Below are positions 1,444 to 6,121 of a stretch of 6,439 nucleotides of DNA, in pieces. Source of the DNA: Chloroflexota bacterium (GTDB taxonomy: Bacteria > Chloroflexota > Anaerolineae > UBA4142); assembly GCA_023380675.1 (NCBI GenBank), contig JAMCRS010000121.1, positions 1-6,439 of the forward strand, in the 5' to 3' direction. A program made the translations under genes and the position numbers. Positions within the stretch are counted from its first letter, which is position 1, and each line of letters opens with the position of its first letter. The notes below the pieces were generated by a model that did no database searches, had not been told where the DNA came from, and saw only the letters and a list, made by a program, of their open reading frames with translations.

Positions 1444-1546
1444 GGCGAGCGGCGGCGGTTGCGCGATGTGCCACGCGGCCGCGGGTTCGCGATTATCATC
1501 CCATCGTCCAATACCGCCGGAATCCGAACGAAGCAAGGAGAGAGAC

Positions 1547-2041
1547 ATGGCAGACAAGGTGGACCTCAAGATCGGCGACGCCGCGCCCGATTTCTCGGCG
1601 TCGGCGGTCATTACCAAACCGCAAGTTCAGCGCATTGAGATTACGTTGAGCGATTATCGCGGCCGCAAGAACGTCGCGCTGGCGTTTCACCCGTTCGCGT
1701 TCACGGCCACCTGAGACAAACAGATCCCTTCCTACGAGGCGCAGAGCGCCGACTTTGAGAAGGTGAATAGCCAGGTACTGGCTATCAGCTGTGACCCGGT
1801 CCAGTCCAAGCAAGCGTGGGGCAAGTCGCTGGGAGGCATCGGATACCCCCTCGTCGCCGACTTTTGGCCGCACGGCGAGATCTCACGCAAGTACGGCGTC
1901 TTCGACGAGAAGCTGGGACGGCCCGACCGGGTGATCTTTGTGATCGACCGGGAAGGCATCGTCCGCTGGATCAAGCGTTACGAGCCGGGGGTACTGCCCG
2001 GAAACGCCGAGCTCCTGGAGGAACTCGCGAAAATCACCTAG
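1547..2041 (+). CDS. AhpE-like peroxiredoxin, selenoprotein (in-frame TGA = Sec56)
   Basis: Peroxidase that would reduce hydrogen peroxide, organic hydroperoxides or peroxynitrite, using selenocysteine as the attacking residue. The frame from ATG 1547 to TAG 2041 encodes 164 residues, a usual length for the family, and is interrupted only by TGA at 1712-1714. Upstream, DAAPDF (11-16) and NVALAFHPFAFT (42-53) and downstream ADFWPHGEISRKYGVF (104-119) and RVIFVIDREG (128-137) resemble mycobacterial AhpE closely. The family active site is P-x3-T-x2-C; here it reads P49, T53, then TGA exactly at the cysteine position. R128 fits the conserved catalytic arginine. The only other cysteine is C82 (AISCDP), not an obvious resolving residue, so this is a 1-Sec type. 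AAGGAG (1535-1540) is a strong ribosome binding site. A SECIS-like hairpin follows the TGA. A nonsense mutation is the alternative but would be a striking coincidence at this codon. Confidence 0.9.
1712..1763 (+). promoter_or_regulatory. UGA Sec codon and candidate bacterial SECIS element
   Basis: After the TGA (1712-1714) comes an upper stem GGCGC (1738-1742) pairing with GCGCC (1746-1750) around the loop AGA, with G in the second loop position. A lower stem CCTTC (1727-1731) pairs with GAAGG (1759-1763), with an internal loop between. The apical loop starts 28 nt after the TGA. Bacterial SECIS elements lie within the coding sequence at about this distance and usually have a G among the first loop bases, bound by SelB. 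The fold was drawn by hand. Confidence 0.65.
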
Positions 2042-3411: not shown

Positions 3412-4447
3412 AGACAGCATGCCTTCTCGCCGGCGCGCGTCCTGGCTGGTTACGCTATCCTTTGTCACGCTCGCGCTGCCGGCGTGCGCGTCGACTGCCG
3501 GCCCCGCCCCGGCAACAGTCCCACGCGCGACCCTGACTGGCGAAGCGTCTTCAACCATATCCCCCTCGACATCGAGAACGTCCACGACCACTAGCGTCAA
3601 GCCAACGGCAAGCGCGGGGCCGACGGCGGCAACGGGCGGCCAGAGCATATCGGCTCTCTCGCCGACCGAGCTCAAGTATGCGTTGATCGCTCGTTTCGGA
3701 GCGCCGTTTTTTTGCGATCCGGATGTCTATCCGGTGGCACGCCGGCTTGGTCCGAGCGAGATCGAGCAGCGTTTGTCACAGATCGAACAGAACACGGAGG
3801 AGTACCAGGCGATCTTGCAGCACCTGGGGTACGGCGGCAGCGCGACGCTGTCGGCCGACCAGGAGCAGCAGGTCTATTCTGAGCACAAGATGCTGGCCGC
3901 GATCGCGCTCGAGGCCGCGGACGGCGCCTATCGCTTCAATTTGCGTATCTCGCAAACCAAGGCCAACGGATTCGTCATTACCGGTACGATCGATTCGAGC
4001 GGTGTGATCCAGGTCGCCAGCCGGCAGGCGACCGTCACGACATGCCCAATCTGTCTCGCCGGCGACACGCTGATCAGCACCCCCGAGGGGCCGGTGCCGG
4101 TGAAGGAACTCGCTCGCGGGATGGGCGTGTGGACGATCGATCTCGCCGGCGCCCGGCAGCCTGCCGTCGTGGTGCAGACGGCAAAGCGGAGCGTGCCGGC
4201 CGGTACTCCGCTCGTTCAGATCGTGCTGGACGACGGGCGAGAGCTGACCGCATCGGCGTTCCATCCGACGATGGACGGCCCGGTGTTAGGTGACTTGGCG
4301 CGCGGAGACTGGCTCGACGGCGCGCGGGTCAAGAGTGTCAAGGGCGTGCCGGACGCGCAGGGTGAAACGTACGATCTGCTCCCGTCGGGCGAGACGGGTG
4401 CGTACTGGGCGAACGGGATCTTAGTGAAGAGCACGCTCGCGCGGTAA
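3389..4447 (+). CDS. Putative lipoprotein with C-terminal Hint (intein/hedgehog-type) domain
   Basis: Uncharacterised 352-residue envelope protein. A basic start (RRFR, RRR) and hydrophobic segment (19-32) end in LPAC, with C33 as probable lipidation site; P at -2 is unusual. A Ser/Thr/Ala/Pro-rich linker (about 34-85) follows. A helical domain (about 90-185) with ARFGAPFFCDPDVYPVARRL (101-120) leads into a short beta region. The Hint domain runs 222-350: CLAGDTLISTPEGPVPVKEL starting at C222, SAFHP (289-293) carrying the block-B histidine, and YDLLPSGETGAYWANGI (328-344). C219 and C222 form CPIC. It ends in KSTLAR without the His-Asn of splicing inteins and with no C-extein, so protein splicing is unlikely; self-cleavage at C222 is possible but unproven. 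GGAG precedes the ATG at 3389, which overlaps lipB by 23 bp; ATG 3419 is an alternative. Confidence 0.8.
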   Translation: MRAPRRFRDSMPSRRRASWLVTLSFVTLALPACASTAGPAPATVPRATLTGEASSTISPSTSRTSTTTSVKPTASAGPTAATGGQSISALSPTELKYALIARFGAPFFCDPDVYPVARRLGPSEIEQRLSQIEQNTEEYQAILQHLGYGGSATLSADQEQQVYSEHKMLAAIALEAADGAYRFNLRISQTKANGFVITGTIDSSGVIQVASRQATVTTCPICLAGDTLISTPEGPVPVKELARGMGVWTIDLAGARQPAVVVQTAKRSVPAGTPLVQIVLDDGRELTASAFHPTMDGPVLGDLARGDWLDGARVKSVKGVPDAQGETYDLLPSGETGAYWANGILVKSTLAR

Positions 4448-4506: not shown

Positions 4507-4580
4507 GGGGGCGTGGTGTAGCGGCCTAACATGCAGCCCTGTCAAGGCTGAGATCGCGGGTTCGAATCCCGTCGCTCCCG
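4507..4580 (+). tRNA. tRNA-Asp (anticodon GTC)
   Basis: A full cloverleaf of 74 nt. The acceptor is 4507-4513 with 4573-4579 (one G-U), the D stem 4516-4519 with 4529-4532, and the anticodon stem 4534-4538 with 4546-4550. The loop has GTC at 4541-4543, and the T stem is 4556-4560 with 4568-4572 around TTCGAAT. The discriminator is G4580; CCA is not encoded. It carries its own promoter and terminator. The 3' end of the serine recombinase gene overlaps it on the other strand, and it is the likely integration target. Confidence 0.95.
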
Positions 4581-6121
4581 CAGAGGCAACTTTCCATAAC
4601 ACGAAGGTTGCCTTTATCTTTTTGTAGGAATGGCGGCAATTGCCCGGGATCGATGTCCTTGACGGCACCGTCTTGGATCGCCTGGTGGACAGAAACGTAA
4701 TAGCTTGGTCGCAACATCAATGCGCAGACGTGGTCGTCGCACACCCAAACTTGCTTCAGAATGACATTCAGTAGGCGTTGACGTCCTTCGATGCCGGCTT
4801 CGTTCCACCGGGTTGGAAACTCTTTCAACATCCGGTGGGCCTCGACCAGTTCCTCTTGTGGAATAGGCTTTAGCTGAGCAAGCTGCGCCTTGAGATCCTC
4901 GCGCTTTTCGACGTATTCCTCCTGCTTCAGGTACCCCATGTCCCAGCGAAAGTCAAGCCGCTCGATGATCTTTTCGATTTCCTTGATGCGTTCATCGAGG
5001 TGCTCGATGCCCAGCAGTTCTCCCACGGCATTGACGGCGGATTGCTCCCACTCCTCCGGTACCTTCATGCTGCTAAGGAAATTGGCAAGCTTCTGTTCGA
5101 TGTCATCTGCGTCAACCATCCCCTGAGGGCAACCGTTTGTCCAATCGATACGCCCGGAACAGCGATAATAACGCTGACCCCGAGGATTCTTCTGGGCTCG
5201 CATTTTGGAGTTGCAGTGGCCGCAGTAAAGCAGCCCTGACAGTGGATACGTAAGGACATTTCGAACCGCGGTGCGTCGGCCGTTGGCCAAATTGCGCACG
5301 TCTTGGCAGCGGTCGAATAGCTCCTGCGAAACGATCGCTTCGTGCTGACCCTTGAACCATTGAGTTGGCCCAGATTTATCGCGTCGGCCATTTGGCTGTT
5401 TCTTGTATGACTGATATCGGATCAACCCCAAGTATGTCTGGTTCTTGAGCATTGAACGAACCATCTCGCGATTGAAAGGCGCTCCTGTCTTCGATCGATA
5501 CCCCGCCGAGTTCAATAAGTTGGCGAGTTCCCGGTCGGAATAGTTACCAGTTGAGTATTCCTCGAACGCGCGCAGCAGCCCTTCCGCCTCTTTCTCATTA
5601 CGCACAAGGACCCCCTTGTCATTCTTATCATATCCAAACGGCGCGAGGTTGTTTTGCTTGCCCTGAGAGGCCTTCTCGCGCTTGCCCTTTTTCGTTTCTG
5701 AACTGAGGTTGCGGCTATGCCACTCGGCGACGAGCTCGAGCACACCTTCGGTCAGCATGCCGGCAAGACTATCCTCATCCTCAGAAAGTTCAGTGACTGA
5801 GAACACTTTGATTCCCAGGTCGGCGCGAAAAAGTGACTTGTATACGCTTGAATCGCGGCGACTACGGGCGAGACGATCAAACTTGTGCACTACGATGGCG
5901 TCGAATTCTTTGCGACGAGCGCCGAGGACCATTTCCTGAAAAGCAGGCCGATCGTCAGTCGTGCCGGTGAATGCCTCATCCTCGAAGAATCGCACAACCA
6001 CACCTTCCAGTCCGTTCTTCTGTTGGGCGACCCACAAACGAATGCCGTGCTTTTGGGCGTCGAGACTATAGTTGCCCCGTTGATCCTCTGAACTGATTCG
6101 AACATAGCCGACGTACCGCAT
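4526..6121 (-). CDS. Large serine recombinase (site-specific integrase), 3' end running into tRNA-Asp
   Basis: DNA integrase/excisionase of the large serine family. Its 531 residues begin with a resolvase domain: YVRISSEDQ (6-14) with S10 as catalytic serine, F46-D48 and FDRLARSRRD (81-90). A recombinase domain follows (about 158-285; LAPFGYD at 159-165). The zinc ribbon has C300, C303, C321 and C331. A Glu/Lys-rich coiled coil (about 375-435) and a tail complete it. ATG 6121 is preceded by GGAGG (6136-6132), 10 nt away. Base composition is less GC-rich than the flanking genes, suggesting transfer. The tail is odd: residues ~492-513 are encoded across the tRNA terminator and its flank, and ~514-531 (GSDGIRTRDLSLDRAAC) by the antisense strand of tRNA-Asp. 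This is what insertion beside a tRNA would create, with the pre-insertion C-terminus different. The recombinase core is intact and probably functional. Confidence 0.9.
   Translation of the reverse strand: MRYVGYVRISSEDQRGNYSLDAQKHGIRLWVAQQKNGLEGVVVRFFEDEAFTGTTDDRPAFQEMVLGARRKEFDAIVVHKFDRLARSRRDSSVYKSLFRADLGIKVFSVTELSEDEDSLAGMLTEGVLELVAEWHSRNLSSETKKGKREKASQGKQNNLAPFGYDKNDKGVLVRNEKEAEGLLRAFEEYSTGNYSDRELANLLNSAGYRSKTGAPFNREMVRSMLKNQTYLGLIRYQSYKKQPNGRRDKSGPTQWFKGQHEAIVSQELFDRCQDVRNLANGRRTAVRNVLTYPLSGLLYCGHCNSKMRAQKNPRGQRYYRCSGRIDWTNGCPQGMVDADDIEQKLANFLSSMKVPEEWEQSAVNAVGELLGIEHLDERIKEIEKIIERLDFRWDMGYLKQEEYVEKREDLKAQLAQLKPIPQEELVEAHRMLKEFPTRWNEAGIEGRQRLLNVILKQVWVCDDHVCALMLRPSYYVSVHQAIQDGAVKDIDPGQLPPFLQKDKGNLRVMESCLCGSDGIRTRDLSLDRAAC
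4584..4623 (+). terminator. Rho-independent terminator of tRNA-Asp
   Basis: AGGCAACTTTC (4584-4594) pairs with GAAGGTTGCCT (4603-4613), 11 bp with one G-U, around an 8-nt loop. The T-rich run TTATCTTTTT follows. It begins 3 nt after the tRNA. The same bases are read on the minus strand as part of the recombinase frame. Confidence 0.85.

Follow-up and report, generated by a model that had tools for sequence, protein, structure and literature searches.

The window, by which we mean the whole analysed stretch of 6,439 nucleotides, carries a peroxiredoxin gene whose direct neighbours are cobA/btuR and a DUF2203 gene; folB lies on the upstream and lipB on the downstream side. The reading frame extends from the ATG at position 1547 to the TAG at 2039-2041 and has the TGA at 1712-1714 as its sole internal stop (Table 1). 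Read through, it codes for 164 residues with U at position 56, which together with P49 and T53 gives the motif PxxxTxxU. The sequence-only reading had placed this TGA at the peroxidatic cysteine, had seen AhpE-like sequence in one frame on both sides of it between a ribosome binding site and the TAG, and had expected gene callers to split the gene. Frame and alignment bear this out. With the PF00578 (AhpC/TSA) profile the read-through product scores 103.5 bits (cut-off 26), and the separate pieces score 24.5 and 51.1 bits in the correct profile order. The AAGGAG motif and the TAG were confirmed, and the database protein P0006, flagged as a product of the window, comprises the 92 residues from the GTG at 1763 onwards. 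P0006 opens a run of 39 consecutive entries of the ranked protein list (P0006-P0044) with 91-105 residues each, a grouping by length in which the sequences of P0006, P0007 and P0014 were inspected.

Table 1. Features of the peroxiredoxin gene and of the proposed RNA structure in the window
Feature	Position	Strand	Remarks
Proposed Sec-peroxiredoxin gene	1547..2041	+	164 codons plus TAG, single in-frame TGA
AAGGAG, resembling a ribosome binding site	1535..1540	+	6 nt 5′ of the ATG; from reading the sequence
TGA, proposed selenocysteine 56 at the peroxidatic position	1712..1714	+	TGA in 19/19 close genes, Cys in other relatives
Helix C, 5′ arm	1727..1731	+	starts 12 nt after the UGA; covariation in relatives, minimum-energy fold of the window
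Hairpin A, within helix C	1738..1750	+	spacing 28 nt, loop AGA; not conserved across the clade
Helix C, 3′ arm	1759..1763	+	in most relatives the register lies 2 nt further 5′
Hairpin B, proposed SECIS	1767..1785	+	8 bp stem, loop GUA at 1775-1777, 60 nt after the UGA

Elsewhere in the window a 31-nt inverted repeat (1-31/392-422, 97% complementary) surrounds the start of an ABC-permease-like frame. It lies at the very start of the window and may be genuine or an assembly fold-back. The frame 3419-4444 has a Ser/Thr-rich, lipoprotein-like start and a weak Hint-domain match of 25.1 bits, below the cut-off of 28.4. A frame for a large serine recombinase (4526-6121, -) extends with its 3′ end into the tRNA-Asp gene at 4507-4581 (+), an arrangement that looks like an integration site. 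Among phage records nothing matched positions 1441-2440.

The best solved relative of the peroxiredoxin is AhpE of M. tuberculosis (Rv2238c; E = 2.1e-31 over residues 7-153), which has a Cys opposite residue 56, where the window protein has the proposed selenocysteine. The two proteins differ further in about 6-8 extra residues of the window protein near positions 21-30 and in its Cys82, which is Val in AhpE. The top seven PDB matches are named as AhpE proteins or are presumably such. Being closest to AhpE by sequence, the peroxiredoxin is assigned to the AhpE subfamily. Characteristic of this subfamily is a 1-Cys mechanism in which a reductant of the mycoredoxin type takes part. PrxU of Eubacterium acidaminophilum (NCBIfam NF040737) likewise has a PxxxTxxU motif in which Sec is the peroxidatic residue; by sequence, however, the window protein is nearer to AhpE, and with 74 bits it does not reach the NF040737 cut-off of 270. 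Cys82 (1790-1792) adjoins the strand coded by hairpin B and is kept in 18 of the 19 close genes introduced below (it is missing from L080); it might act as the resolving residue for Sec56.

A scan of genome contigs retrieved 19 loci. At exactly the aligned codon 17 of them have TGA and two, one from GN15 and one from Nocardioides, have Cys. The records of the 17 TGA loci are labelled Chloroflexi, Chloroflexota, Anaerolineae, Anaerolineales and, in one case, Candidatus Aquidulcis. In the order of one relative the gene was found at E ≤ 1e-50 in 17 of 20 genomes with one TGA each, the locus L080 being new among these. The window, the 17 TGA loci and L080 make up our close set of 19 genes for which DNA is at hand. 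All 19 have TGA at the peroxidatic codon; thus the TGA is no sequencing error. Three database proteins that are about as distant (P0003-P0005, 57-60% identity) share the insert but have Cys. In P0002 and P0065 the residue is W, which may reflect a TGA read by another code. With Cys in P0003-P0005 and W in P0002, TGA is not universal in the subfamily. P0065 and P0079 are peroxiredoxin-glutaredoxin fusions, the former perhaps a further Sec-peroxiredoxin translated with a different code. In a sample of 400 genomes from the phylum, 115 contained matches at E ≤ 1e-20, 118 in total. One of them duplicates L002, and the remaining 117 comprise 34 TGA, 82 Cys and 1 Ser gene. We divide the 34 other TGA genes into 21 wider distal-type genes and 13 without hairpin B; the former were picked by hairpin B, so that only helix C is an outside test there. 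The 82 Cys genes together with the two from the contig scan form the comparison set of 84. In the phylum of Nocardioides, 17 of 396 genomes have a match at E ≤ 1e-30, three of them with TGA.

The TGA could also be a true stop, yielding two polypeptides or a decayed gene, or it could code for tryptophan. Database pieces that begin after the TGA, the GTG start at 1763 and the two entries with W would fit such readings. They are nevertheless highly improbable, as the TGA is kept at the catalytic codon of all close genes while relatives have Cys there, and as the codons beyond it show purifying selection (dN/dS 0.09-0.21 3′ of the TGA in four pairs of genes). Furthermore folB (902-904), cobA (1441-1443) and the DUF2203 gene (2428-2430) end in TGA, and thus TGA is a stop codon in this DNA. 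On these three grounds, conservation, downstream selection and TGA-ended neighbours, we reject the decayed gene, the stop with restart and the decoding as tryptophan.

The selenocysteine reading proposed from the sequence is supported by the TGA opposite Cys, by the coding sequence beyond it, by an RNA element that goes with TGA and not with Cys (see below) and by the machinery in the genomes of the relatives. In the 17 draft genomes of the TGA genes from the contig scan, we found above curated cut-offs selB in 15, tRNA-Sec in 15, selA in 14 and selD in 17, all four in 11 genomes, three in 5 and two in 1. Every selD in these genomes itself contains one in-frame TGA. The GN15 genome with a Cys gene has all of the machinery but selB, and the Nocardioides genome with a Cys gene has no Sec machinery gene above cut-off. 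selA hardly discriminates, being present in 34/34 genomes of the other TGA genes versus 73/80 genomes with Cys or Ser genes only. By these numbers the Sec trait is common throughout the phylum, and the TGA genes lie within it. One draft genome (G010) contains two tRNA-Sec genes above cut-off (C347:3035-3126 and C435:1037-1130) and could be a mixed bin. Taken together, selenocysteine is almost certainly inserted at the UGA in this host.

Bacterial SECIS elements are described by a model (bSECISearch, with the limits given in the text of PMC13188914) in which the apical loop lies 16-37 nt from the UGA; the same range appears in the text of PMC10778597. We applied the limits literally, that is, a loop of 3-9 nt, a stem of 4-16 bp, a G in loop position 1 or 2 and an energy of at most -7.5, with unbroken stems only. 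At the spacing of 16-37 no hairpin fits this model in any of the 19 close genes. Hairpin B passes in all 19 apart from its spacing, which is 59-60 nt (scanned range 52-66). Counting the U of the UGA at window position 1712 as nucleotide 1, nucleotides 56-63 pair with 67-74 and leave the apical GU at 64-65; all eight pairs are formed in 18 close genes and seven in L008. The numbers of genes with a match at 16-37 and at 52-66, respectively, are 7/21 and 20/21 for the wider distal-type genes, 0/13 and 0/13 for the 13 other TGA genes, 2/14 and 10/14 for the TGA genes of the GN15 phylum, 12/84 and 5/84 for the Chloroflexota-set Cys genes, and 0/27 and 0/27 for the Cys genes of the GN15 phylum. Matches in Cys genes and in the other sets mean that the proximal and the distal scan both have a chance rate.

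Several observations set hairpin B apart from a mere coding sequence. When codons 19-25 were resampled synonymously, p < 0.05 was reached in 18/19 close genes, 9/34 other TGA genes and 0/84 Cys genes. At 57-73, 11 close genes have U-A and the other 8 have C-G, without any mismatch. The best tree built from the remainder of the gene implies at least three changes of this pair; its backbone is weak, with 8 of 16 inner branches falling below support. The change at nucleotide 57 falls on a third codon position and that at nucleotide 73 is an Ile/Val change. All 19 close genes use the Ala codon GCT at nucleotides 70-72, although GCT makes up 13% of their Ala codons. Hairpin B alone folds in the window with -9.5 kcal/mol (z = -3.50), and RNAalifold, unprompted, recovers hairpin B together with the inner base pairs of helix C. 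Hairpin B is very probably the SECIS bound by SelB.

Alternatively, hairpin A could be an ordinary SECIS and the SelB site, hairpin B then being accessory or unrelated. Hairpin A lies within the published spacing, its -7.1 kcal/mol falls just short of the limit of -7.5 and becomes -8.5 with the neighbouring bases folded, and its pair 30-36 covaries. However, only 7/19 close genes have its AG-type triloop, the nearest relative (L001) having CAA, and its cells are paired to 72.6% in the close and 40.0% in the wider set versus 99.3% and 89.3% for hairpin B. We therefore regard this alternative as unlikely.

With at least seven of eight pairs and the GU, hairpin B is found in 19/19 close, 16/34 other TGA and 1/84 Cys genes. 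With a strict definition, the five core pairs (58-62 with 68-72) and the GU, the numbers are 19/19, 21/34 and 4/84, and in the GN15 phylum 13/14 TGA and 1/28 Cys genes, the non-TGA matches being given as loci of which one repeats L017. Pooled over the two phyla, this core is present in 53/67 TGA peroxiredoxins versus 5/112 Cys or Ser homologues; 14/67 TGA genes do not have it. Three TGA genes of the Nocardioides phylum stand outside the 53/67: one has the five core pairs and the GU, and two have four and the GU. Of the Cys genes of that phylum five were looked at, with two to four core pairs and the GU in three. The Gln-Val-Leu coding stretch alone favours an apex of the hairpin B type, and the apical GU occurs at this position in 43/84 Cys genes; it is thus the stem and not the apex that sets the TGA genes apart. 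A quick tree shows 11 changes between TGA and Cys and 17 changes of the hairpin. A contrast that takes kinship into account leaves four supported independent TGA/Cys pairs, of which on average 2.5 go in the same and 0.0 in the opposite direction (median p = 0.25).

We also considered whether a proximal SECIS replaces hairpin B in the 13 TGA genes without it. This idea was only partly borne out, as none of the 13 passes the literal model. Six of them (L166, L167, L173, L183, L184 and L193) have a strong UCACCUC[CUUGC]G(A/G)GGUGA hairpin at spacing 17, the loop of which has no G in the first two positions. Weaker proximal hairpins are found in the TGA genes L142, L147, L182 and L060, and L053, which also belongs to the 13, has a shorter distal hairpin of 5 bp at spacing 60.

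The selD genes of the same genomes offer a comparison. Their hairpins have the same kind of apex as hairpin B, CA-N-GU-...-UG, as seen in CAAGUUUUG and CAGGUUCUG. The spacing differs: the SelD SECIS mostly lie at the ordinary distance of 32-33 nt versus 59-60 nt for hairpin B, and the literal model finds 14/18 of them at 16-37 and 1/18 at 52-66, the lone distal match being a GN15 gene. One SelB would presumably serve both hairpins, and a folded spacer would explain how. A covariance model built from 17 SelD SECIS was intended to detect such hairpins independently. Its 20 hits in the window were all weak and out of register with hairpin B; one of them (4.9 bits) overlaps the 3′ arm of the hairpin. 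Of 14 hits in the 17 close loci, two reached the hairpin B apex, in L087 and L090 (7.6 bits, E = 9.7), and both were weak and partial. Among the wider TGA genes (22 loci), hairpin B accounted for 5 of 17 hits (L061, L113, L139, L148 and L152; 8.3-10.2 bits, E = 1.9-5.7). The 21 Cys loci gave 15 weak hits, counted irrespective of position. The model had learned the SelD sequence, and we count its result as negative for hairpin B.

Between the UGA and hairpin B the spacer can form helix C. Among 819 possible helices, helix C ranks second by pairing in the close genes; the top one is without covariation. In the fixed register 16-20/46-50 the fraction of paired cells is 0.92 in the close genes (complete in 13/19), 0.70 in the wider distal genes (6/21), 0.43 in the TGA genes without hairpin B (0/13) and 0.37 in the Cys genes (1/84). 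As the outside test, helix C pairs in 72.0% of the cells in the wider 21 genes. The minimum-energy fold of the window contains helix C and hairpin B together (-26.1 kcal/mol, z = -2.25).

It is conceivable that hairpin B is the SECIS and that SelB merely tolerates 60 nt, helix C being incidental. The register of helix C does vary. It is shifted to 16-20/48-52 in the window and L001, and in the GN15 TGA genes the fixed register is complete in 0/14 while five pairs form in some register in 11/14. When the best register is allowed, six pairs are reached in 14/19 close, 12/21 wider distal, 1/13 other TGA and 4/84 Cys genes, and five or six of six pairs in 29/84 Cys genes. Against an incidental helix stand the fixed-register pairing of the close genes versus that of the Cys genes and the pair 18-48, which occurs as five standard pair types with one mismatch. 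In our view SelB tolerance alone is improbable. Helix C is less certain than hairpin B, and we think it fairly likely from the sequence comparisons that it shortens the distance between UGA and SECIS.

We also examined the three helices as a whole. In the close genes 87.7% of the cells are paired and eight pairs have changes on both sides, and in the wider 21 genes 71.0% are paired with such changes in 16 pairs (1/500 shuffles). The covariation is 0.240 versus 0.132 after shuffling in the close genes (0/500) and 0.302 versus 0.175 in the wider ones (0/500); further pair types number 18 versus 14.5 (18/500) and 33 versus 30.1 (74/500), respectively. These shuffle tests are to be read with the structure being drawn from the close set and with kinship of the rows alone being able to beat such shuffles. 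Sliding the partner columns by 1-3 lowers the pairing to at most 44.4% (close) and 44.7% (wider).

We suggest that selenocysteine insertion proceeds as follows. SelB would bring the Sec-tRNA to the UGA by binding hairpin B with its apical GU loop 60 nt downstream. Helix C would fold the spacer, beginning 12 nt after the UGA and finishing 3 nt before hairpin B. With the UGA in the A site, about 12 nt after it lies the mRNA entry of the ribosome. With helix C folded, the path from the UGA to the SECIS loop would be about 12 + 3 + 8 = 23 nt, which is within 16-37. The resulting Sec56 is predicted to reduce peroxides via an ordinary peroxiredoxin cycle. The gene is probably a Sec-peroxiredoxin gene of an uncultured Chloroflexota (Anaerolineae-type) bacterium which uses a displaced SECIS and a spacer helix. 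More generally, we lean towards a two-part mRNA structure that directs the insertion, a SECIS about 60 nt away and a covarying helix that folds out the spacer. The rule of 16-37 nt would then describe a path length rather than a distance along the sequence, and such a structure would be usual in AhpE-like Sec-peroxiredoxins of several phyla.

Sec-peroxiredoxins are an established family according to the text of PMC1794560, PMC5029168, PMC2398784, PMC1088965 and PMC13188914, and the text of PMC1794560 lists three selenoproteins for Chloroflexi. Some bacterial SECIS fall outside the model, as stated in the texts of PMC13188914, PMC12013277 and PMC9312934, and PMC1242214 describes in its text divergent SECIS in Photobacterium profundum, with a search range of -10 to +100 around the UGA. 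The published model has a spacing of 16-37, whereas hairpin B lies at 59-60 nt with a covarying helix in between. A SECIS at such a distance combined with a spacer helix was not met in searches of an open library and in text passages of the papers named here and of PMC11431864. Within this scope, the displaced SECIS with its spacer helix is likely, but unproven, to be a new form of bacterial Sec recoding.

In summary, the protein taken alone is a further branch of the known Sec-peroxiredoxin family that has been hidden by gene callers. If the displaced SECIS is true, the quantitative rule for finding bacterial selenoproteins would be systematically incomplete and searches with a linear spacing would miss such genes. 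The spacing tolerance of SelB on the ribosome would then become directly testable, and one could look for selenoproteins with folded spacers. A built-in control is provided by selD, which in the same genomes mostly has ordinary spacing.
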